The position numbers were made by a program, and so were the translations under genes. Shown here in pieces: positions 44,504-56,652 of a stretch of 64,000 nt of DNA (the stretch's first letter is position 1; the number at the start of each line of letters is the position of its first letter). This stretch comes from Candidatus Hydrogenedentota bacterium (GTDB taxonomy: Bacteria > Hydrogenedentota > Hydrogenedentia > Hydrogenedentales > SLHB01). Location: the NCBI GenBank assembly GCA_019695095.1, contig JAIBAQ010000012.1, positions 1 to 64,000 on the forward strand. Direction: 5' to 3'. The notes beneath the pieces were generated by a model, which saw only the letters and a program-made list of their open reading frames with translations, had not been told where the DNA came from and made no database searches.

Positions 44504-44968
44504 CCCACTACGTGAGGCATCGGAGGACTACCATTCCCCGTCTGCTCGTGGCTTGAGGACCGATATCGGGCAACGACGAGTAGTGCCCGTGCCTCGCTTG
44601 AGTTCCACATTCGCTCGGCAATTGCCCCACGGGTTTCCCGCGCGAAGTTGACCTACCGCCGAGGCCATCCCCCTCATGCCTGATGGCAATCCAGTTCGTC
44701 TTTGCTGAATCGTTTTTTTTCTGTGCTATCTGTGGTATTTTTTGACAATTATTGAGTTGTGCAACCAATTTTTGGCGGTGACAATTTTTTGTCCTATTGG
44801 GTACTTACTGTCGATTCGCCCGGTTTAATTTCCCCAGCTACCCACGCACATATCAGCTTAACGTATTGAAATTAAATAGTTTAAAAATCCGGGTATGAGA
44901 ATTGTTCGTGAATCCCCTTAGTAAGTGCCGCGTATGCGGCGTCAGCCGCCAGAAGAGGAGTGAGTACT
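44504..44968. other. AT-rich spacer upstream of the metalloprotease
   Basis: 465 bases, clearly AT-richer than the flanks. TTGACA (44742-44747) is the only good -35; no matching -10 at 17-18 bases. Hairpin GCGGC-gtca-GCCGC (44936-44949) precedes the AGAGGAG of the metalloprotease. I see no gene here. Confidence 0.4.
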
Positions 44969-46936
44969 ATGGTAAATACGGCAAAGGCTAGTCTAGCTTG
45001 GCTGCTGGGCGTGCTGGCAGTAACCTTCTTGTGCGTCGCCTCGCACGCACAAGTCAATCCAGGCGAATCTACAGTCCCGGAAACCACTATCACAGGGATA
45101 GTCGAGGTTGTCCAGGAGGACTACCCTCAGAACAGCGAGGGAAAGTTGTACCACGTGCTGACGGACCAGAAGACGGGCAAGCTTTACTGGATCAAGTTCG
45201 AAGGCACCCCGCGACACGGGCTCAAGTCCGGGCAGGTCATCAAGGCGCGAGGGAAGGTGCGCGGGGACGAACTGGTGGTCCTAAGTGGGGACAGCAGTTC
45301 GGTCACCGTACTTCAAGACAGCGCGGCTGTTGCAGGTCAGCGTACCATTGCTGTGATAATCGTTGACTTTCTGGATACTGCGGCTCCGTGTACGCCTCAG
45401 CAGGTAGCCGCCATTCTTTGGCCAGACGCCAGCCAGTCCTACGCGAACAAGAATGTGTCCGGATTATACGAAGAGGCCACTTCGGGCCTGATTGGATTTC
45501 AGTCTGATACCGACGGCAACGGAACCCCCGATGTCTTCGGCCCGTACACGGTCAATGCAATGAGCACCGACGCGTGCAATTATTACGCGTGGGCCTCGGA
45601 CGCAGAGAATCAGGCATCCTACGATGGTGTTCAGCTGGATCTGTATGAGCATTTGCTGTTTGTCATTCCGACCGCCAACACCTGTGGCTGGTCAGGAGTT
45701 GCTAATGTGGGACCGGGTAATCCCGCTCGCGCCTGGGTAGTCGGAATACGGTATCCGGACGCATTTGCACATGAATTGGGTCACAATCTTGGGATGTATC
45801 ACGCCGGCACGGATACCAACAACGACGGCGTCACAGATAACGCATATGGAGACTTGTCCGACATCATGGGGTACTGCGGCGTCGGCTATCGCCATCCTGA
45901 CGCGCCCCACAAAGAGCAGTTGGGCTTCTTTACCGGCTATTCTGAGCGCGTGAAGGTCGTGCAGGCAGGGGGAACGTATACGATTGCGCCCTTGGCGCTG
46001 AATCCGTGGGAGACAAACCTGCCTCAGGTTCTCAAGATCTACAAGCCCAATACCGGGGAGTATTACTACCTGTCGTATCGAACCCTGCTGGGATACGACA
46101 GCGCATTAAACTCCGGCTATGCCAATCAACTCAACATCCACCGCTATGCAGGCGCACAGACGTCTTTTGTCAAGGCATTGGCGGACGGAGGGATATTCCA
46201 AGACACTGCAAACGGCATTAAAGTCACCCAATTGAGCCACAATGTCGATCCTGTCTCCGGATTCGTCAGTGTCCAAGTCGATTTCGGTGCCGTAGTTCGC
46301 GCTCCGAGCGTGTCAATATCGCCATCGAACCAGGTCGCATCGCAGCCCTCAAACGCGCTTCAATTCACCGTCTCGGTGACGAATAACGATTCAAACGCGG
46401 GCGCAACCACGTTTGCTTTTGCGGCCAGCCTGCCCGCTGGATGGTCCGCATCGGGTCAACCGGCTCAACTTGCACTGTCGCCGGGGCAAAGCGGCACCCT
46501 CGTTGCTACCGTGACTCCTCCCTCCGGAATCACGGACGGGAAGTATACGCTGAAGCTTGGCGTTTCGGATCCTTCGGGCGTGCATGCGACGGCGCAGGGT
46601 ACGGTTTCCTACACATTGGATTCACAGGCGCCGCTCACCGTCACCGGGCTTCAGGCCAGCCTGAACCGAAAGGGCGTGGCCCTTACTTGGAGCGCGAGCT
46701 CTGACGGAACGGGCACCGGCATTCGCCAATACAGCGTGTTCAGAGGCTCCGGCGGTTCTGCGCTCTCGTATGTGGCGGCAGTGACAACCCTGTCGTTTCA
46801 AGACACCGCGGTCACCGCTGGCAATACATATACCTACGCGATAGCGGCTCAGGATTACGCAGGCAACCTGTCTGTCCTCAGCAATCCCGTGAGCATCGCG
46901 CTGACAAGCAGTAAGTCCAGGCCTTCGCAGAAATAA
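44969..46936 (+). CDS. Secreted M11/M6-type zinc metalloprotease
   Basis: Exported protease of 655 residues; GAGGAG eight bases before the ATG at 44969 fixes the start over a GTG at 44960. Signal peptide ends ASHA (27). Zinc site HELGHNLGMYH at 268-278 with the Met-turn DIMGYC at 298-303 makes it a metzincin of the gametolysin kind. Two aspartate-rich, EF-hand-like loops, SDTDGNGTPD (179-188) and DTNNDGVTD (282-290), flank the zinc site and may bind calcium. About 450-550 looks like a NEW3 beta-sandwich and 560-650 like an FN3 domain. It lacks a PEP-CTERM tail. Its place next to the exosortase genes suggests matrix or surface-protein processing (inference). Confidence 0.85.
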   Translation: MVNTAKASLAWLLGVLAVTFLCVASHAQVNPGESTVPETTITGIVEVVQEDYPQNSEGKLYHVLTDQKTGKLYWIKFEGTPRHGLKSGQVIKARGKVRGDELVVLSGDSSSVTVLQDSAAVAGQRTIAVIIVDFLDTAAPCTPQQVAAILWPDASQSYANKNVSGLYEEATSGLIGFQSDTDGNGTPDVFGPYTVNAMSTDACNYYAWASDAENQASYDGVQLDLYEHLLFVIPTANTCGWSGVANVGPGNPARAWVVGIRYPDAFAHELGHNLGMYHAGTDTNNDGVTDNAYGDLSDIMGYCGVGYRHPDAPHKEQLGFFTGYSERVKVVQAGGTYTIAPLALNPWETNLPQVLKIYKPNTGEYYYLSYRTLLGYDSALNSGYANQLNIHRYAGAQTSFVKALADGGIFQDTANGIKVTQLSHNVDPVSGFVSVQVDFGAVVRAPSVSISPSNQVASQPSNALQFTVSVTNNDSNAGATTFAFAASLPAGWSASGQPAQLALSPGQSGTLVATVTPPSGITDGKYTLKLGVSDPSGVHATAQGTVSYTLDSQAPLTVTGLQASLNRKGVALTWSASSDGTGTGIRQYSVFRGSGGSALSYVAAVTTLSFQDTAVTAGNTYTYAIAAQDYAGNLSVLSNPVSIALTSSKSRPSQK

Positions 46937-46996
46937 AACCAGGTCGAGGGGACTGAGTTTACGGAATGTGAAACTGGCTGGTTGCAGAAATGACAA

Positions 46997-47037
46997 GGCA
47001 TGAGAAAGTGTTGCAACTCACAACGCTTTCTCATGCC
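46997..47037. terminator. Long bidirectional hairpin between convergent genes
   Basis: GGCATGAGAAAGTGTTG (46997-47013) and CAACGCTTTCTCATGCC (47021-47037) pair over 17 positions, one being G-T, around a 7-base loop. It lies between the metalloprotease and the convergent PEP-CTERM gene. No clean T run follows on either strand, so it may stabilise or process 3' ends rather than terminate. Confidence 0.6.
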
Positions 47038-47068
47038 AACCTAATACGCTGTCTCATGCCAACCTAAT
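47023..47068. repeat. 23-bp direct tandem repeat
   Basis: Two adjacent 23-base units, 47023-47045 and 47046-47068, differ at one base (ACGCT T/G TCTCATGCC AACCTAAT). The first unit is most of the right arm of the hairpin at 46997-47037, so either copy can pair with the left arm. Confidence 0.85.
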
Positions 47069-47078
47069 GGTAAGAGAG

Positions 47079-47834
47079 TTAAAGTTTGTTACGGAACCTG
47101 CCCGCAAACAAGCCCAACATGCCAATGCCAACGATCGACCATGTCGCAGGTTCCGGCACGGGGATGCCCGGTTCGTCCGGCGGGAAATTCGGCTCGTCCA
47201 AAGCGGTTCCGTACTGGAACGACCAGTTCGAGAGATTCGCTAAAGAGAACCCCGCATAATCGTCCGCGACGGAAAGGTTAAAGGTCACGGAATTAGAAAT
47301 GGTCGGATTCGACAGAACCGCATTATTCGAGCCGGGTCCGATTCCGTAATCTATCCCGTAGTTCATCCCATCAACAGCGACGGGGCCAGCCAGGTTGACA
47401 CCGTTAAAGTTTGCGGTGCCAAACAAACCAAAGCCCGAACTGCTGATACCCGAGGTAGCTCCATTGGGAGCACCAACGAGACCGTCCCCGTAAGCCCACT
47501 CACCACCCACGTTGCCGCCCCCATCCGGGCCATTGAGTACAGCAGAGCCGGAAGTGAGCACCGCGCTCACAGGTGCGAGCATGTAACCTCCAGAGACGGA
47601 AAAGAAGAGCGCCGTCAGGAGATCGCTGGGTTTCAACGCTACATCGTCCACGTTGGCAAGCACTACGGTCAGCGTACCGTTACCGTCGTAACTGACGACT
47701 GCCTGCGCCTGCAGGAGGCTGCCCGATTCCGGGTTGGTTTCCGATCCGAAAATCGTAATGGAATCAGCGAAAGCAGGCATGGCAAACAGCGCAACCAACA
47801 GCACGCCAAAAGCACAGCCCAAAATCTTCAACAC
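47079..47834 (-). CDS. PEP-CTERM surface protein
   Basis: Exported protein of 251 residues and the only exosortase substrate seen in the window. Sec signal at the N terminus (cleavage after AFA). Gly/Ser/Asn-rich middle, Trp-poor. The last 26 residues carry the sorting signal: VPEPATWS, a hydrophobic helix (IVGIGMLGLFAG), then RFRNKL. Exosortase is expected to cleave at the PEP motif. Start: GTG at 47834 lies eight bases from AGGAGG; the GTG at 47843 would be flush with it. The protein looks like a structural matrix component. Its leader is described separately. Confidence 0.88.
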   Translation of the reverse strand: MLKILGCAFGVLLVALFAMPAFADSITIFGSETNPESGSLLQAQAVVSYDGNGTLTVVLANVDDVALKPSDLLTALFFSVSGGYMLAPVSAVLTSGSAVLNGPDGGGNVGGEWAYGDGLVGAPNGATSGISSSGFGLFGTANFNGVNLAGPVAVDGMNYGIDYGIGPGSNNAVLSNPTISNSVTFNLSVADDYAGFSLANLSNWSFQYGTALDEPNFPPDEPGIPVPEPATWSIVGIGMLGLFAGRFRNKL

Positions 47835-47932
47835 TTTTCTCACCTCCTCTCAGCCCAGTCTTCGGACCATACCCCTAAGGTCCGACCCCAAGTTACAGGA
47901 GGTGGCACAAGACTCCTTGCACGCAGAGTCTT
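47835..47932 (-). promoter_or_regulatory. Leader of the PEP-CTERM gene with Shine-Dalgarno sequestration
   Basis: Transcript runs toward lower coordinates. The Shine-Dalgarno AGGAGGTG (47848-47841) has an exact 8-base complement, CACCTCCT (47904-47897), upstream in the same leader. Between them is a 7-bp hairpin, TCGGACC with GGTCCGA (47862-47868 and 47879-47885, 10-base loop). Farther upstream AAGACTC with GAGTCTT (47909-47915 and 47926-47932) forms another 7-bp stem. The AGTCTT part of that stem is also complementary to AAGACT at 47862-47857, so alternative pairings exist. This would suit translational control by a switching or temperature-sensitive leader; no ligand is suggested. Confidence 0.5.
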
Positions 47933-48451
47933 TAAGCAAGAATAGTGCCATTTGGAGTGATATAGTATTTAATTTACAATGTCGGCGAGGTCAAACGGCG
48001 GTGCGGTAAGGCCCAAACATGAGTACCGGCAAACTAAGTCTAGTATCAGGAGGCTGTTGGGCGTTGATGAAGGCCAATTAGAAGCTTGGGCCCAAACCTT
48101 AAAGTAAGAATAATGACAGTCTGCCGAGTGGCGGTGCCGGGAATGAATTCCGTGACTGCTGGACAATGAGTATTCATCCTAGACATTTCTTTACTGCACT
48201 TGTTGACAAATTGTCATTCATTGATTGACCTGCAAATGCGCTATTCCCGCAGTCGTTGGGAAGCGCAGAAGTCATGTGAGCCGTTGAAATTAAATATCAC
48301 TATGCATTGTGCTTTCTGGTTTCTTTGCTTAGCCTTTGCACGACAGGCGGTAGTTCCTGGGCGTTGGAAGGTATGCGGTCGGGCCTACAGGCCGACCAAG
48401 CCAGTTGGCATGTCACGCAGTGCATCCACGTGAGGAGACAACCGAGTACGG
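47933..48451. other. Spacer between the PEP-CTERM gene and epsI-like gene
   Basis: About 520 bases with no credible gene. TGACAA-a-TTGTCA at 48204-48216 is a perfect 13-base palindrome with a TTGACA overlapping it, a possible regulator site. The stretch near 47950-47980 is AT-rich and may hold the promoter of the PEP-CTERM gene, but no pair of boxes stands out. Confidence 0.4.
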
Positions 48452-49078
48452 CTACGGGATTCTATCCTGCAGAATCGGCGCCAGGCTGGAAGCAAAGTCG
48501 TTGAGCATTCGAAATGCTTTCTGCTCGCCCGAACTGTCGACGGGGATGCTCAATCGGATCAACATAGAACTAGGATTACGAAGCAAAAGTTTGTCGCGCA
48601 CCCAACAAAGCGAATTCACAAAATAGCTTCCCGTGAAGTCATTGCCCGTTTTGAACCAGTAGAGCACCGCCTGGCGCGACTTGCCTCTCTGCAGCGTGAG
48701 CCCTTGTCCCACAAAGTATACCCCCACCGGAATCGGCGCTTTGTCTTGCGTCTCCCAACCCTGACCCGTGAAGCAGACTTCAGGGAAATGGAGGCTGCGA
48801 CGAGTCGTTCCCGCACAGACGATGGTCATCAGAATGGTTCCGCCGCTACGCGACGAATAGCTGCGCATGAGAATCGCGTTTGATTCTAACTGTTGCCTTA
48901 TGGATTCGGACACAGGTATGTCAGGGCCGGCCTGGTGGAATTCCAGAATCTCGGATGGCAGATTAAACAAGTCCGACGGAGAGCTGTTCGCCGCGGTATT
49001 GGCCTCAGCCCCTCTGATAGTCAGATGCAGTATTGCAGTAGCCAACAGCATAATGAATGTGATGAGGTACCGTTTCAT
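48452..49078 (-). CDS. EpsI-type exosortase-associated protein (DUF3485)
   Basis: 208 residues with one N-terminal membrane helix or signal (YLITFIMLLATAILHLTI). The family block SLHFPEVCFTGQGWE at 95-109 contains a conserved Cys102 and His97. The C-terminal half has VLYWFKTGNDFTGSYFVN and RDKLLL, matching DUF3485. In other bacteria this is encoded beside, or fused to, exosortase, and is needed for polysaccharide export, but its activity is unknown. The ATG overlaps the exosortase stop (ATGA), so the pair is co-translated. Confidence 0.9.
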   Translation of the reverse strand: MKRYLITFIMLLATAILHLTIRGAEANTAANSSPSDLFNLPSEILEFHQAGPDIPVSESIRQQLESNAILMRSYSSRSGGTILMTIVCAGTTRRSLHFPEVCFTGQGWETQDKAPIPVGVYFVGQGLTLQRGKSRQAVLYWFKTGNDFTGSYFVNSLCWVRDKLLLRNPSSMLIRLSIPVDSSGEQKAFRMLNDFASSLAPILQDRIP

Positions 49079-49980
49079 GATGAGGCCTGTGCGGAAGTAT
49101 GCGGCTTGGAGGGGGCGAGGCGATGAAGCAACCGGTCAAATCCAAATAGAAGTAGGAGCGCTACCACGTAAATAAAGAGGCCCGATATGTCATGAACCCA
49201 GCCGCTGGCGACCTCACTTCCCCAGAAACTGGCAACCACGCAAAGAAAGAAGATGCGGAGGACGTTGGAAAAGACGGCAACCGGAACGGACACCAGCAGG
49301 GTCAAGACTCGAGCGCATGGTCGTGTCTGGCTCATATAGCTCATCATGGCGCCGAGCGCCAGGAGCGCAATAAGGGAACGTAGACCTCCGCACACATCGC
49401 CAATCAAGAGCTGATCGTCGCCGAATCGGACATATGATCCATCGCGAATCATAGGAAGCAGGCAAGCGCGCGAAAGGAAAATGGCGCAGTCCATGGCGAG
49501 CATCTTTACCCGGAAGGTAATGCTTGTTGTAAGGAATTCAGGCAGAGGTATCATGAATAGCAGGAATGCTAACGGGAACCACAGGCGACGCAGGTGACCT
49601 GCGCCCAGAAAAATCAATACAAATCCCGCCAGTAGCGGAATAATCGCCGCTTCTCCGAGCATGCGCAACCCAAGGAGATCTCCTCCCAGGACCATAAGGC
49701 ATGCGCAGCCCAGGACGGCGTATCCCCAATTTGACGAACCCCTTGGGATTCGAGCGAGTTCATTTCGCATCCGCCACGTGAAAAACAAGCATATGAATGG
49801 AACAAGAAAGGCGTGCGTATAGTAGGAGTTCTCACGGGAGACATTATCGCGCCAGTTTTCGAAGTAAGGTCGGAGGATGAAAGCCGAGAGAGCTAGAGTC
49901 GCTATCCAAAAGCCAATCCTGAACCATTTTGCGTTTGCGATGGCGTCCCGCAGTCCCCTTTGGGAAACAGCACTGTCCAT
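49075..49980 (-). CDS. Exosortase (XrtA-like)
   Basis: Integral membrane transpeptidase-like protein of 301 residues with about eight helices. The catalytic triad is visible: Cys197 in GDVCGGLRS, Arg242 in FSNVLRI, His263 in WVHDISGLF. It is expected to cleave PEP-CTERM proteins at the membrane and pass them to an acceptor, in the manner of sortase. YTHAFLVPFI is the usual N-terminal block. The start lies 11 bases after the TPR gene stop and the end overlaps epsI-like by four bases, forming a three-gene unit. No typed accessory genes (PrsK, PrsR) are within the window. Confidence 0.93.
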   Translation of the reverse strand: MDSAVSQRGLRDAIANAKWFRIGFWIATLALSAFILRPYFENWRDNVSRENSYYTHAFLVPFICLFFTWRMRNELARIPRGSSNWGYAVLGCACLMVLGGDLLGLRMLGEAAIIPLLAGFVLIFLGAGHLRRLWFPLAFLLFMIPLPEFLTTSITFRVKMLAMDCAIFLSRACLLPMIRDGSYVRFGDDQLLIGDVCGGLRSLIALLALGAMMSYMSQTRPCARVLTLLVSVPVAVFSNVLRIFFLCVVASFWGSEVASGWVHDISGLFIYVVALLLLFGFDRLLHRLAPSKPHTSAQASS

Positions 49981-49991
49981 TAGGTGTTACG

Positions 49992-52900
49992 TTACTCTCC
50001 GAGTCGAGCTGCCATGTTCGCCAATCGGGCCCTGTCGGACGGCGAACTCCCTTCAGCTTCTTCCTTGGCGGAATCATAGTAGGTGCGGGCTAAGTCCAAT
50101 CTGCCGAGTCCGAGATAGGCCTCCGCCATGAGCAGTTTCAGATTGCCGGGGGCAACGCCGCCCGCTTGGCTGAAGCCTTGAAAATCTTCAATGGCCTTGG
50201 CGTAATCCTTAAGGTCGAGTCTGATGGACCCACGCAAGAATAGGAGCATGGGCTTGGGATTGATATCGATTACGCGCTGAACGATGGCGAGCGCCTCCGC
50301 GCGCTGTGCGGGAATGCGCGACAGAATAAATGCCTTTTGCTCCAACACCTCGGTATCTTCGGGCCGCTGCGCCAACAGGCGGTCGCACAGACCGAGCGCC
50401 GCGCCGGGGTTGTTCGTCAGCAATTCCACGACAAGCAGGCCACGTAGTGCCCGCCAGGAGTTGTGTTGTTTCACGAGCGCCTGAGTGTAGGAACTTGATG
50501 CATCCGGAATCCTGACGGAGGTTCCTTCAGACAAATAGAAGTTGCCCAGTTCAATCCACAAATCGGGATCGTCCGGTTGACGAGCCGTGCATTGCTTCAG
50601 GAATTCTTCTGCTTCATTTCGCTTTCCCTGATTCGAAAACGCAGCGGCTAGTGAATGAATTACTGCCAGGTCCTTCTGATTCAGAGCATATATCTCGCGC
50701 AAAAGGCCCTCCGCCGCTGCCCAGTTCCCGCGGTTCATAGATAACAGCGCGCGAAGATAGGAGGCAGACTTGCCGCCTTGCAGAGCTTCCACCCGCTCTA
50801 TGAGTACCTCTGCTTCAGAAAAACGCTTTGCATCAGAGTAGGCCCGAGCAAGATAGCCAACAATTGCGAGGTTATTTGGGAACAAGGTAGTTGACTTTTC
50901 AAGCGTTTGAATGGCATCCAGCAGCCTTCCCGCCTGTAACTGGGCTCGCGCAAGCACAACCCATGCACCCGGGTCTTCGGGCGACGCTTCGCGGGCCTTG
51001 GAAGCAAAGCTGAGCGCCGTTGCGAAATCACCCTTTCGAGAGGCCACTTCACTGGAGATCATATAGGTCTCCGCATCGGGTGCATTCGCTGTCCTCGCCG
51101 CAGCACACAGCTTCTCCGCGCCATCGACATCTGCGGGAACGTGCTGCAAGAGCGCATAGGCCCGCAAGACCTTCGCGTCGGTGCGTTCGGGCTCGATGCC
51201 TTCAGCCTCTGCAGTGAGTCGTTCTGCGGCACTCCTGTGCTGAGGGTCATCCGAAATCAGCAAGGCTCTTGCAATGAGGATTCGGCTATCGTTAAGGCGA
51301 GTCGTCATAGTCGTCACATCGCGATATTTCTCTGCAAGATTCCCGAGAACCGAACTAGCGGCCTCAAAATTGCCCACTCTGAGGTACAAATCAATTTCGT
51401 CCAGTTCAAGTTCGCTGTGATTTGCCGCGGAAGGCTCACTGGCTTGAAGAGTCCGAAGCAGGTCCAGGCCTGCGTCGAGAAACCCGCGGTCCGCGAAGAG
51501 TGACGCCCACGCAAAGGCCCTCTCCGGTGTGATTGCACTCTCCGCAAGCTCAAGCTCGAAGTACTTCTTGGCTTGTTCAACATCTGACTCGCCAAGCGCG
51601 AGTGCCGCCCGCAGAAGGGTCAACTCCGGAGCCGCGACTTTAGCGTCTTCCGCGCGGGAGAGCACGCTTCTCGCACTCTCAGCGTCTCCCTGGTCGAGAA
51701 ACAAAGAAGCGAGTTCCCGATAGCCTCCAGGTGCAGAGGGGGCTTGCTCGATCGCCCGCTCAAAGAGTTGTCTTGCCAGGGCTATTTGCTCATTGCCGGC
51801 CCCTTTGCCTGATTTCTCGCGTGAGAGAGAGAATCCGGTCGATAACAGTGAGCCAAAGTACGGCGCTTCGCTTTCAAGCAAAGAGACTGCGGTCTTGGTG
51901 AGTTCTGATACAGGGTGCTCCGCGAACGTCGCGTCCCAAATCGCAAGTGCGACCTCATCGTTCGGATTGTTGGCGAGATAGATTTCAAGCGTGTTCTTCG
52001 CTCGCTCTCGTTGTCCGCTTTCAAGATAAGCCACGCCCAAATACCGTCGTGCAACCCGAAGTTCAGGAGCTTGCCGCACGACGACCTCCAGTTTAGACAC
52101 CGCGTCTGTAAGCTGCCCCTGCTTCATTAGTCTCCGCGCGTCGAGATACTCCGGCACGATTCGGTTGTCTGGGCATGCGGTCCGAAATGCCTCAACAGTT
52201 TTGTTTGCGTTCTGCAGGAGCCCGGCATCAATCTGCGCCTCAGCCAGCAACACATAATGCTGTGGATTGTCCGCCAGGACATACGGATCCGTTTGGGATA
52301 GAAATGAGATAGCCTCAGCAGCTTGACCACAGGCGAGATAGGTCTTGAAGACGATGACGTACGCGTCCGCTGACTCAGGCGCCTTGCCGATGGCTCTTAG
52401 TGCAAATGACCGTGCCTTATCCCACTGCTTGCTGGAAGCGTAGACCTTTGCCGCCACCAAAAGGGCATCTGCGGAATCAGCACCCGCAGTCAGGGCTGAC
52501 TCGATCTCCTGCACGGCCCTGCTGGAATCGTTCGCTTCCAACAAGAAGCGGGCGCGCTCCACCCCAATACGCTTTTTGTCGGAGGCTTCTGCCTGGGCCT
52601 TTTCCAGAACCTGCCACCCCTGTTCTTCCAAACCCTTCTTCAGGAGGAGTATGGCCAAGTTTCCGTAGACTACTGGCTCGGCGCTGCCAGATTGGATCAT
52701 CTCTTGATAAGCAGTCTTTGCCTGGTCTGTTCGCCCAAGGTTGTCACATGCCAGCGCTTTGGCAAGGGTCAGCGTGGCGTCATTTGGATTCACCCGAAGA
52801 AGCAGGTCAACTGCGAAATCGAGGTCCCGCCACAGTCCGTGTCGAAGGTAGAAATCGATTACCTGCTGGGTCAGGGCACGGTCTGACGGGGTTGCAAGGG

Positions 52901-53207
52901 CTAGCTGCATATACGCGCGCCCCGCGTCACGAACGTTGGCTTGGCGGTCGTTTAGCAGTTTCAGACAGGAATCGATGTATTCTGGAAGAACGCTTGTGGC
53001 TTGCGGATGCCGCGCGAGATACCACGTGAAATTGCTCTTGGCTTCGCGATACCGCCCCTCAGCGTACGCGCGCTTTGCGGTGACATAGGCTCCCTGCCCT
53101 TGGTAACCACGAAACAATAGGTATCCCGCGCCACCCAATACCCCAAGGCCAGTCAACACTGTCGCGATCAGAAGTATGCTTGCCAGCGGTCGCTTAAGCG
53201 GAAACAT
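49992..53207 (-). CDS. Large TPR-repeat protein of the exosortase locus
   Basis: 1071 residues: an N-terminal membrane anchor (ILLIATVLTGLGVLGGAGYLLF) and then TPR-like helices nearly to the end (typical units A-Y-x-x-G/A-x-x-x-A..., for example AKRAYAEGRYREAKSNFTWYL and AEAYLGLGRLDLARTYYDSA). This is like the PrsT-type TPR proteins that accompany exosortase, though it is a single-pass membrane protein rather than an evident lipoprotein. It probably lies in the periplasm and scaffolds export or assembly. GGGGGAAGAG precedes the ATG. It is divergent from the second TPR gene and upstream of exosortase. Confidence 0.87.
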   Translation of the reverse strand: MFPLKRPLASILLIATVLTGLGVLGGAGYLLFRGYQGQGAYVTAKRAYAEGRYREAKSNFTWYLARHPQATSVLPEYIDSCLKLLNDRQANVRDAGRAYMQLALATPSDRALTQQVIDFYLRHGLWRDLDFAVDLLLRVNPNDATLTLAKALACDNLGRTDQAKTAYQEMIQSGSAEPVVYGNLAILLLKKGLEEQGWQVLEKAQAEASDKKRIGVERARFLLEANDSSRAVQEIESALTAGADSADALLVAAKVYASSKQWDKARSFALRAIGKAPESADAYVIVFKTYLACGQAAEAISFLSQTDPYVLADNPQHYVLLAEAQIDAGLLQNANKTVEAFRTACPDNRIVPEYLDARRLMKQGQLTDAVSKLEVVVRQAPELRVARRYLGVAYLESGQRERAKNTLEIYLANNPNDEVALAIWDATFAEHPVSELTKTAVSLLESEAPYFGSLLSTGFSLSREKSGKGAGNEQIALARQLFERAIEQAPSAPGGYRELASLFLDQGDAESARSVLSRAEDAKVAAPELTLLRAALALGESDVEQAKKYFELELAESAITPERAFAWASLFADRGFLDAGLDLLRTLQASEPSAANHSELELDEIDLYLRVGNFEAASSVLGNLAEKYRDVTTMTTRLNDSRILIARALLISDDPQHRSAAERLTAEAEGIEPERTDAKVLRAYALLQHVPADVDGAEKLCAAARTANAPDAETYMISSEVASRKGDFATALSFASKAREASPEDPGAWVVLARAQLQAGRLLDAIQTLEKSTTLFPNNLAIVGYLARAYSDAKRFSEAEVLIERVEALQGGKSASYLRALLSMNRGNWAAAEGLLREIYALNQKDLAVIHSLAAAFSNQGKRNEAEEFLKQCTARQPDDPDLWIELGNFYLSEGTSVRIPDASSSYTQALVKQHNSWRALRGLLVVELLTNNPGAALGLCDRLLAQRPEDTEVLEQKAFILSRIPAQRAEALAIVQRVIDINPKPMLLFLRGSIRLDLKDYAKAIEDFQGFSQAGGVAPGNLKLLMAEAYLGLGRLDLARTYYDSAKEEAEGSSPSDRARLANMAARLGE

Positions 53208-53706
53208 CTCTTCCCCCGTCGCTGCTCACGGCATGCATCGTTGCTGGAAGAATGGTGCGCGATAGAAAATGTCCCCTTACCCTGACGCGATGTATGGTAA
53301 CATTGTCACGGTGATTTAGGCTACTCCAATTATCGGGCGGTCTAGTGGGGGTACAAAACGTCTCAGCTAATCATCAATCCAAATACCGAGCAGGCAGATT
53401 CAGAGGAACCAGAAAAGTGTCCAGATTGTGACAGTGGCAGTCTGTGCAGTTACTTGGCACAAACGCGTATCGGTACCAGCTCTGAAGTGCATTCGCTTAC
53501 CACGAGAACAACGTGAATGGGGGACATGTATCATTCCCCTGAGCGGGACCCGGAAATGTCTCTGATTCTCTCATTGAGTCCGAGGATGAACTTTCCTGAA
53601 AGTTGGTTCAGGCCGCAGGCAGCTGATTCTGCGATTCGTTTAGTGCGCGAATTCGTCAACGGTATTTCGCAGTTGATTTTGCCCTTTCGCATGAAAGGAA
53701 GTGGCT
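53208..53706. other. Divergent intergenic region between the two TPR genes
   Basis: About 500 bases. Two short ORFs on the + strand have no ribosome site and no recognisable product. The AAGGA before the ATG at 53707 is the only clear functional site. I see no strong promoter pair by eye, although both genes must be driven from here. Confidence 0.4.
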
Positions 53707-56652
53707 ATGCGTCCTCTATACGGTTTGTCCAAGCCCGTCTACGCCGCTGGAATCGCAGTCCTCTTTTTCCTCGTTATTCTCGTATCCTCGTGTGAGGCCC
53801 GCCGAAGTGAGCAATACCGGCTTGAAGCAGATGCTTACTTTAAGCTCGGGCGATTGCAGGAGGCTGCCGAACTGTACCAGGAAGCCATTGTGGTCGACTC
53901 ATCCAATGCGATGGCCAAGCTTGGCTACGGCCGATGCCTGAAGGCGGAACATAAGTTCGACGAAGCACTCGCAATTTTCCAGGAAGTCTTGTCCAGTGCA
54001 CCCCAGACGGGAGCCGCATACCTGGAGACGTCGAACCTTCTGCTTGACCTCGACCGCCCCGATGAGGCCATTCAGCTCGCTAGCCAGTACACGTCACTCA
54101 ATCCGGAACAGGGGGGACTGTTGCTGGGACGGACTTTTCTGGTTGTCGGGCGAAGCGCGGAGGCATTGGCGACCCTTTCCACATTAAATGAGCGTTTCCC
54201 CAATTCCGCTGACATCAAGGTAAATCTAGCTTTGGCCTGCCTCGCGCAGGGTCAAGCGAAAGAGGCAGAGACGCTGCTCAGGAAGGTGTTGGGCTCCGTT
54301 TCGACAACCTCTACTGCCGCCCGGGTTGCGCTCGTAGATGTCTATGAGACCTTGGGAAAGAGCACCGAGATGGTTGCGGAATTGGAGGACATGCTGGCTA
54401 GAGCCCCTGAGAATGAAGACACCAAATCGGTACTGGCGCGAAGCCAGGTCGTGGCAGGACAGCTTACTGAGGGGGAATCTCGGGCACGTGAAGCGGTGAC
54501 TACAGACCCTTCCTCCGGTTGGGCCAACTACGCGATGGGATTTTGCATGCTTCAGAAGGGCGCTAATGAGGAAGCTACAGGCTATCTTCAAAGAGCCTTT
54601 GCAGTCTTACCCCAGGAGACTCAAGTACAGATGGCATTGAGGCGCGCTCAGAACGGCAGTTCTGCAGCAAGGGGAGCGACAACTCATGCATCTGGTGCTG
54701 GCTTGAAGACTGAAGGGACACCTCCTTTAGAGATCCCAAAAGATTGGCGCACGCTCTGGAAGCAGTCCGTTCTCAACCAACTTTTGGAAGGTCGCGACGG
54801 GTTCCTCAAGGAAGGCGGAGAGAACCTGCGCGAGACGCTTGTGGCGGCGGCCATCTTTACCGGCAAGCATGCATTGGCTGAAGAATTGGCTCAGAGCCTG
54901 GCCGAAGATAGCCCCTTGCGCCTCTATCTGCGTGCTTTGAAGGAGGGTAACAGAGAAGACGCCTTAAAGGCCGTTGAAACATGGAGTACCCGAGACGACG
55001 ACCTTGGACTCCTTGGCCAAAATGCCTTGGGCTACGCGATGGCACTCTCAGGCGCACATGCCCGGGCCTTGCAGGCACTCACCGCGTGCAACCAGCGCTG
55101 GCCCGACAATGCTGTCAGTCTGTTCAATACCGCACAGGTGTTCCGAATGGCCGGCATGTCCAGGCACGCAGCAAGCGTGTGCAGGCGAATCAGCACTGAG
55201 TATCCCAGCAACTCGGAAGCTCACGGGATGCTTTTTGCCATACTCCGAAGCAGTGGGCATGAATACGAGGCCTGCAGAGCCGCTGAAACTGCATATGCAA
55301 TATTCCCTGGGGCTCCTGAAGCCGCGCTCAATCTATCCCAGTCTTACCTGGACTTGCGCCGGCTCGACGAAGCAAAGGATGTGCTCAGTCAGGCTTTCGA
55401 GGCCGCTCCTGGAAAACCGGAGCTGCGCTTGGGACTCGCCAATATCCTGCTTCATGAAGGCAAACCGGATGAGTGTCTTGACCTTATCGCTGGGGAGACG
55501 TCCTCCCCCAATTGGGAAGGGCAAACGGGGGTGCTTTCGGCGTTGTGTTACACCATGATGCGCGAGTGGGAACCGGCTCTTGAAAAAGCCACATCTATCG
55601 ACGGCGCATCCCAGCAGCCAACAGCGCAGCTCATCAGGTTCAGCGCACTATTGAATATGGGCAAGTCCGAAGATGCGGTTGCCAGCCTGCTTCCGACGGA
55701 TACTGCAAAGCCCTCAGGAGACCGGGCAGGCCTGATTCTGATGCAGGCTGTGGGCCATCCCGCCGCCGGAATCAGCGACGCCGAATCCGCACTTGCCGCA
55801 GAACTCTCCAGAGACGCTGCCCTGGTGAGTTGTTTTGCACTTGGAGCAACCTATCAATCAGCCGGCCTGCACGATGACGCTCTGGAGGCATTTCAGGATA
55901 TAGAGCCCTTGGTGTCAGAGGGAGCACCCTGCCTTATCCGGTTTATGTTCACGAGTATGACCATGGCTGCCAGACTGCAGGATGTAAAGGACGGACTGAG
56001 GTCCCTCGCACAGCGCCATGCAGCGGTGCCGGGTGCCTGGCTGAACCTTGCCGCCGCACTTCGAGCGCTTGACGATGACATGGGGGAGCGAGAGTCCCTT
56101 GACAAGGCATTGGAAGCAGGACCAAATGATCCTAGTGTGTCGTTGCAGCGAGGCATGTATTTTGAGCGCAAGAATGATGCGCCATCGGCCATTAACGAGT
56201 ATCAGCGATTTCTAACACTCCGTCCGGACGACCCCATCGGAAACAACAATTTGGCCTACTGCCTGCTGACAACAGGTGGAGACGCGCAAAAGGCGCTCGA
56301 ATGCGCGCTCCGCGCCGCCAGAAAGCTTCCCCAGGACCCTCACGTCATGCATACGCTTGGTGTCGCACAATTGCGGTTGGGCGACCTTGCAGAAAGCAAG
56401 AAGAACCTCACGGCCGCGTTTGACAGACTTCCTGGAGACCCTGCCATAGCGCTGGATCTCGGGCAGCTTTCTATCCAGGAGGGAGACAGCCAAAAGGGAC
56501 GCCAACTGGCAACGGCTGCGCTGGCTTACGCCGATTACTTTGATTTGAACTTTTCTCGAAAGCAGGAGGCTGACGAGATACTTGCCAGACCTCCTGTACA
56601 GGAGCCTGCAAATGGTCAACTTTCACAAGCAGGCGACCTGCCTTCACCTTAA
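53707..56652 (+). CDS. TPR-repeat lipoprotein, PrsT-like
   Basis: 981 residues; ATG at 53707 with AAGGA seven bases upstream is preferred over the GTG at 53701. Lipoprotein signal: LVILVSSC with the lipidated Cys29. After it come about 20 TPR-like helical pairs, for example ADAYFKLGRLQEAAELYQEA and NNNLAYCLLTTGGDAQKALECA. The size and lipobox match the PrsT (PEP-CTERM system TPR lipoprotein) pattern better than the other TPR gene does. Location would be the outer or inner membrane, facing the periplasm. A terminator follows 100 bases downstream. Confidence 0.88.
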   Translation: MRPLYGLSKPVYAAGIAVLFFLVILVSSCEARRSEQYRLEADAYFKLGRLQEAAELYQEAIVVDSSNAMAKLGYGRCLKAEHKFDEALAIFQEVLSSAPQTGAAYLETSNLLLDLDRPDEAIQLASQYTSLNPEQGGLLLGRTFLVVGRSAEALATLSTLNERFPNSADIKVNLALACLAQGQAKEAETLLRKVLGSVSTTSTAARVALVDVYETLGKSTEMVAELEDMLARAPENEDTKSVLARSQVVAGQLTEGESRAREAVTTDPSSGWANYAMGFCMLQKGANEEATGYLQRAFAVLPQETQVQMALRRAQNGSSAARGATTHASGAGLKTEGTPPLEIPKDWRTLWKQSVLNQLLEGRDGFLKEGGENLRETLVAAAIFTGKHALAEELAQSLAEDSPLRLYLRALKEGNREDALKAVETWSTRDDDLGLLGQNALGYAMALSGAHARALQALTACNQRWPDNAVSLFNTAQVFRMAGMSRHAASVCRRISTEYPSNSEAHGMLFAILRSSGHEYEACRAAETAYAIFPGAPEAALNLSQSYLDLRRLDEAKDVLSQAFEAAPGKPELRLGLANILLHEGKPDECLDLIAGETSSPNWEGQTGVLSALCYTMMREWEPALEKATSIDGASQQPTAQLIRFSALLNMGKSEDAVASLLPTDTAKPSGDRAGLILMQAVGHPAAGISDAESALAAELSRDAALVSCFALGATYQSAGLHDDALEAFQDIEPLVSEGAPCLIRFMFTSMTMAARLQDVKDGLRSLAQRHAAVPGAWLNLAAALRALDDDMGERESLDKALEAGPNDPSVSLQRGMYFERKNDAPSAINEYQRFLTLRPDDPIGNNNLAYCLLTTGGDAQKALECALRAARKLPQDPHVMHTLGVAQLRLGDLAESKKNLTAAFDRLPGDPAIALDLGQLSIQEGDSQKGRQLATAALAYADYFDLNFSRKQEADEILARPPVQEPANGQLSQAGDLPSP

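Follow-up and report, generated by a model that had tools for sequence, protein, structure and literature searches.

A predicted leader that locks the Shine-Dalgarno sequence of an XDD4-family PEP-CTERM gene behind a sigma-54 promoter in a Hydrogenedentota bacterium

In the toiL-topAI leader of E. coli, an RNA structure hides the downstream ribosome site, and a short upstream frame relieves this block when ribosomes pause on it, the start codon included (PMC12121999). The ermB translational attenuator is described as a leader peptide combined with a second ribosome site sequestered by a stem-loop (PMC9178857), while the ppe2 gene of Mycobacterium tuberculosis needs translation of a uORF in its leader, a B12 riboswitch, and is reached via termination-reinitiation (PMC11260477). 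With respect to the transcription of exosortase substrates, -24/-12 sites stand before 99 of 167 proteobacterial PEP-CTERM genes, at a mean distance of 71 nt from the start codon, and the account of these motifs in Haft 2006 reports them in Proteobacteria only (PMC1569441). The pepA gene of Aquincola has a TGGCAC promoter element and a mapped start (PMC9850573). The words exosortase and Hydrogenedent are absent from the main text of a 2025 survey of sigma-54 regulons (PMC12316311), and literature searches combining PEP-CTERM with riboswitch, PEP-CTERM with Shine-Dalgarno, and Hydrogenedentota with exosortase returned no leader of the kind described below.

The window analyzed here, i.e., the whole stretch of 64,000 nt from a Candidatus Hydrogenedentota bacterium, carries on its minus strand a gene for an XDD4-family exosortase-dependent PEP-CTERM protein (47079–47834). 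Membership of this family was assigned from a match to NF045504 well above the cut-off (E=1.6e-50; 171.8 bits versus 40) together with a C-terminal PEP-CTERM motif (PF07589; 24.4 bits versus 20.7). The gene had been presented in a preliminary description as the only one of its kind, which holds for the window; across the genome, PF07589 matches nine places at E≤10, eight of which are above the cut-off. The start codon is likely GTG 47834–47832, located 8 nt past AGGAGG. The longest open reading frame begins at GTG 47843, but this codon is an unlikely start because it sits within the Shine-Dalgarno sequence (SD). Directly past the XDD4 stop codon there is a 12-bp stem-loop, GGCATGAGAAAG...CTTTCTCATGCC (46997–47037, minus strand), which from its sequence is the probable end of the transcript; it was not flagged in a terminator scan that takes only loops of up to 8 nt. 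Two copies of ATTAGGTTGGCATGAGA(C/A)AGCGT lie between the stop codon and this stem-loop (47070–46997), and the whole repeat and stem-loop region separates the XDD4 gene from a convergent gene (44960–46936) with a weak M6-metalloprotease-like match.

Upstream of the XDD4 gene, the order on the minus strand is a gene for a large TPR protein (49992–53207), an exosortase gene (49075–49980), an EpsI-like gene (48452–49078) and an interval of ∼620 nt. The TPR, exosortase and EpsI proteins encoded at 48452–53207 are 52.7–62.8% identical to those of a related contig (G010:C558), in which the EpsI gene is followed by the beginning of a similar TPR-type protein and then by the contig end. In the nine relatives whose sequence extends far enough beyond the EpsI-like gene, the frame after this gene encodes, as judged by eye, a TPR-type protein, and XDD4 is not directly next to it. 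Since the relatives differ at this point, the position of the XDD4 gene after EpsI is a local arrangement that has no syntenic orthologue in the data. In a comparison of 14 stretches, an XDD4 match was present in 10, and an exosortase or EpsI match in none. The window also carries a TPR gene beyond the cluster, on the other strand (53701–56652). No XDD4 match was found in plasmids or in viral contigs.

A consensus sigma-54 -24/-12 promoter, TGGCAC-TATTC-TTGCT with an N5 spacer, can be read directly at 47935–47950 (minus strand). We take the usual sigma-54 spacing to apply, which puts the predicted transcription start near G47924 (minus strand), 12 nt past C47936 of the -12 element. The resulting predicted leader is 90 nt long, and the structured stretch discussed below coincides with it almost exactly. 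A scan of 46900–48500 for sigma-70-like sites gave none. The preliminary description, which dealt with the leader fold, mentioned neither this promoter nor the open frame in the leader that extends over the two arms of the SD stem. As in the proteobacterial sigma-54/PrsR PEP-CTERM genes, a -24/-12 promoter is placed ∼100 nt or less from a single PEP-CTERM gene (PMC1569441, PMC9850573), and the hexamer TGGCAC is the same as that of the Aquincola pepA promoter (PMC9850573).

Such promoters recur before related genes. A -24/-12 site lies at most 400 nt upstream of the match in 9 of 38 XDD4 locus entries, compared to 0.27 expected, as estimated from the remainder of the same loci; the 38 entries hold at least two duplicated places (L004/L037 and L019/L033), and both G008 genes are counted separately. 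Of the nine entries, one is from Noviherbaspirillum and one from a genome related at domain level only (G109). The places with such promoters are the window, L023, L027, L029, L032, L033, L035, L041, L022 and contig C89 (L049) of the window's own genome. In that genome, in which rpoN was found, a strict sigma-54 pattern gave nine matches (five for the reversed control), two of which stand just before PEP-CTERM genes, namely the XDD4 gene studied here (contig C12) and the gene on C89.

The regulators associated with these promoters in Proteobacteria were not recovered. None of 45 genomes had a TIGR02915 (PrsR) match above the cut-off, and no TIGR02916 match above the cut-off was found in the own genome. 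Motif 1 ending in TTTACA was not seen at 32–92 nt upstream of the promoter; only a TGTAA half-site is present, 28 nt upstream of it. The locus thus differs from a Haft-type regulon (PMC1569441) in its Hydrogenedentota host, in having no PrsR above the cut-off, and in having no TTTACA motif 1. A comparison of the regions upstream of 14 sigma-54-like promoters revealed no activator site common to all. At a distance of ∼254 nt, the sigma-54 promoter is preceded by a palindrome, TGACAA-T-TTGTCA (48216–48204), which is a candidate activator site, and the two tandem G008 genes have another palindrome in common, TGTCA-N4-TGACA, 132 nt upstream of their promoters. On contig C124 of the own genome there are also two tandem XDD4 genes (L057 and L059), probably a duplication, with a common leader element composed of the hairpin GTGCTT-GGGG-AAGCAC and a second GC-rich hairpin; this element stands downstream of degenerate sigma-54-like sites.

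The SD of the XDD4 gene, AGGAGGTG (47841–47848, minus strand), is exactly complementary to the 8-nt anti-SD CACCTCCT (47897–47904, minus strand), as the preliminary description had observed. The inner 7-bp stem that it placed between these arms is likewise present (TCGGACC/GGTCCGA; in the RNA UCGGACC...GGUCCGA, 47885–47879 and 47868–47862 on the minus strand, 90% complementary over 10 nt in a repeat search). Both the minimum free energy and the centroid structures of the predicted transcript add a 5'-terminal hairpin, GUGCAAG-GAGU-CUUGUGC (47905–47922, minus strand), which abuts the SD stem. A transcription start downstream of 47897 had been named as fatal to the proposed pairing; the predicted start, at 47924, lies upstream of that position.

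The sequence from 47924 to 47830 is predicted to fold at -38.0 kcal/mol (z -3.04), a value matched by 1 in 200 dinucleotide shuffles. As controls, 41 further gene starts of the window were folded, picked by a crude criterion (ORF length and SD) that may have misplaced some of them; their mean z was 0.16 (sd 0.97, minimum -2.87). Among 20 overlapping 95-nt windows covering 48440 to 47776, only that at 47930–47836 was extreme (z -2.78), the other 19 ranging from -1.95 to +1.00. The leader fold is therefore a local outlier with respect to shuffled sequences, to its surroundings and to other gene starts. Given the predicted start, the most stable fold has the anti-SD and the SD joined in an unbroken GC-rich 8-bp helix of -12.9 kcal/mol. 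At 37°C the SD of the predicted transcript has a mean unpaired probability of 0.002, and to open it the model requires 12.2 kcal/mol when the RNA ends at 47830, 8.2 kcal/mol when it ends at 47800 and 10.1 kcal/mol when it ends at 47780. The earlier view that the leader hides its own SD is thus borne out by these calculations, according to which the leader is a genuine, unusually stable SD lock behind a sigma-54 promoter.

An open frame of 22 codons, VPPPVTWGRTLGVWSEDWAERR followed by a stop codon, runs through the leader from GTG 47908 to TGA 47842–47840 (47840–47908, minus strand) and has a 6-nt SD of its own, AAGGAG (47913–47918, minus strand), 4 nt before the GTG. The start of this frame overlaps the anti-SD, which is contained in codons 2–4 (CCA CCT CCT, giving with the GTG a V-P-P-P opening), and its TGA shares bases with the main SD and ends 5 nt short of GTG 47834. 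When a ribosome was modelled at the start of the frame, the cost of opening the main SD fell, for the same three RNA ends in the same order, to 0.9, 2.4 and 0.4 kcal/mol, and with the ribosome at codon 4 to 1.7, 0.4 and 1.4 kcal/mol. With the ribosome at codon 12 the SD stem stayed closed (10.3–10.9 kcal/mol). The SD and start of the upstream frame are themselves partly hidden by the 5' hairpin (opening cost 4.4–6.5 kcal/mol). In shuffled leaders, frames of 8 codons or more that have an SD of at least 5 nt and end near the start codon occurred in 8.6% of cases (chance 0.086), and the upstream frame by itself is only suggestive as evidence.

A short frame with its own SD, placed to disrupt the SD stem, has the arrangement of a leader-peptide attenuator, and by analogy the geometry of this leader is that of the known erm, toiL and ppe2 systems. 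With toiL-topAI it shares a leader structure hiding a ribosome site and a short upstream frame; the frame and its regulation were tested there and are predicted here, and the gene, phylum and sequence are different (PMC12121999). The likeness to erm attenuators lies in a leader peptide and a sequestered second ribosome site, both predicted in the present case. Unlike ermB, there is no drug, known stalling peptide or resistance gene, and only the Pro-Pro-Pro stretch hints at stalling (PMC9178857). Translation of the upstream frame is proposed here, as for the ppe2 uORF, to be needed for the downstream gene, but the ppe2 leader is a riboswitch for B12, and no aptamer was recognized by Rfam in the leader studied here (PMC11260477).

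Is the lock a regulatory device or an accident? The fold might be neutral and confined to one genome, with the sigma-54 promoter as the point of control and a translation rate that is low and constant, and we regard this as quite possible, if short of probable. The preliminary description had named a conserved gene without conserved pairing as a refuting outcome, and the data come close to it. The pairing is absent from every other testable PEP-CTERM/XDD4 leader, these being family members and not syntenic orthologues, from a set of 147 searched genomes that includes none of the same genus. In the 12 others that were scored, the longest anti-SD is 0–5 nt, compared to 8 nt here, and the opening costs are 0.9–8.6 kcal/mol, compared to 8.0 kcal/mol here; 16 leaders were listed and 13 scored, this one included, as no start codon was found in own C1 and G020_b, and G011 was skipped. 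A set of 12 leaders was folded, this one included: in the other 11, taken from the sigma-54-like site (degenerate in the two from C124) to the start codon, z ranged from -1.40 to +0.97 and none was unusually folded. DNA similarity searches with the leader returned, in the own genome, the leader itself and two chance matches, and in the related loci chance matches only. The bare hairpin motif, CACCTCCT-N25..55-AGGAGGTG, is at chance frequency over the 147 genomes, with 15 occurrences in 10 genomes, compared to 17 occurrences of the reversed control pattern in 13 (one versus one in the own genome). With a fixed 88-nt leader, moreover, the opening cost of 8.0 kcal/mol ranks only 10th among 42 genes of the window, called by the same crude procedure. 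A neutral origin does not readily account for an extreme z (-3.04) that is limited to the predicted leader, nor for the fact that the locked SD is precisely the strongest one (a 9-nt match) in the crude gene set of the window. We give a translational brake of known kind and a neutral fold roughly equal weight, and the leader is, on these models, at most a local control element.

The other readings are less probable. In one of them, the leader is a conditional switch whose opening depends on a ligand, on a small RNA or on an RNA-binding protein (e.g., a CsrA-like one acting on GGA motifs) rather than on the upstream frame; this would fit the strong lock and the stable inner hairpin. It would also fit a GU-rich alternative helix (47808–47880, minus strand), possibly due to chance, in which a strand of the inner hairpin pairs with the early coding region and the SD is looped out, 7.7 kcal/mol above the minimum. 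We nevertheless think it unlikely, as Rfam gave no match at the gathering cut-off in the whole window and, in permissive searches, only two chance-level matches at 47700–48100 (E≥2.7, opposite strand) and sub-threshold chance matches in 17 related loci; the relatives show no conserved aptamer-like core, and no partner was identified. A two-way switch had been suggested in which AGTCTT (47914–47909) pairs either with an upstream arm or with AAGACT (47862–47857), all on the minus strand. The upstream stem, AAGACTC/GAGTCTT, is indeed complementary at 7 of 7 positions, but its 5' arm (47932–47926) precedes the predicted start. With transcription starting at 47924 this arm is not transcribed, and the two-way switch therefore largely falls. 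Forcing the downstream AGTCTT/AAGACT pair costs 9.3–15.6 kcal/mol in the predicted transcript and 9.4–11.0 kcal/mol in a longer one, considering nested structures. The same repeat, AAGACTC-N10-GAGTCTT (47909–47932), could be a repressor operator acting in the DNA, and its perfect 7-bp arms do extend across the predicted start; repeats of this length are not unusual by chance, however, and an operator would leave the SD stem unexplained, so that we consider it decidedly improbable, in a comparison for which the sequences of the relatives reached the promoter only and not the start site. An RNA thermosensor, also proposed earlier, would suit an SD held within a hairpin but is very improbable because the unbroken GC-rich helix keeps the SD paired up to a modelled 70°C (98% paired; unpaired probability 0.021), and opening within a physiological temperature rise was not observed in the model. 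Taken over the nested folds that were scored, a procedure to which pseudoknots are external, the switch, pseudoknot and thermosensor readings of the leader are not supported.

Our tentative proposal is that the SD-locking leader acts, behind the sigma-54 promoter, as a translational brake that ribosomes translating the upstream frame would release. The promoter would give rise to a single-gene transcript of the PEP-CTERM gene. In the predicted fold of its 90-nt leader, a short 5'-terminal hairpin is followed by a long stem-loop, the closing 8 bp of which lock the SD. This lock would add a strong translational brake to the sigma-54 control, and we infer that it would most likely be opened by ribosomes on the 22-codon upstream frame. 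A ribosome at GTG 47908 or in the first codons (V-P-P-P) would cover the anti-SD and set the main SD free, and one arriving at the stop codon (47840) would cover the main SD and might restart at GTG 47834. That ribosomes pausing or moving slowly on Val-Pro-Pro-Pro hold the stem open and so turn the PEP-CTERM protein on, making the leader a translation sensor on top of sigma-54 control, is conceivable, but we would not expect it.

The papers that were found say little about how exosortase substrates are regulated in bacteria other than Proteobacteria. If the proposed brake is real, this PEP-CTERM gene would be double-locked, at the level of transcription by sigma-54 and at the level of translation by a stem that ribosomes open. 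A firmer by-product of the analysis is that XDD4/PEP-CTERM genes of this Hydrogenedentota family are preceded by sigma-54 promoters although no protein of the family scores above the PrsR cut-off, and the missing activator is therefore a findable target.
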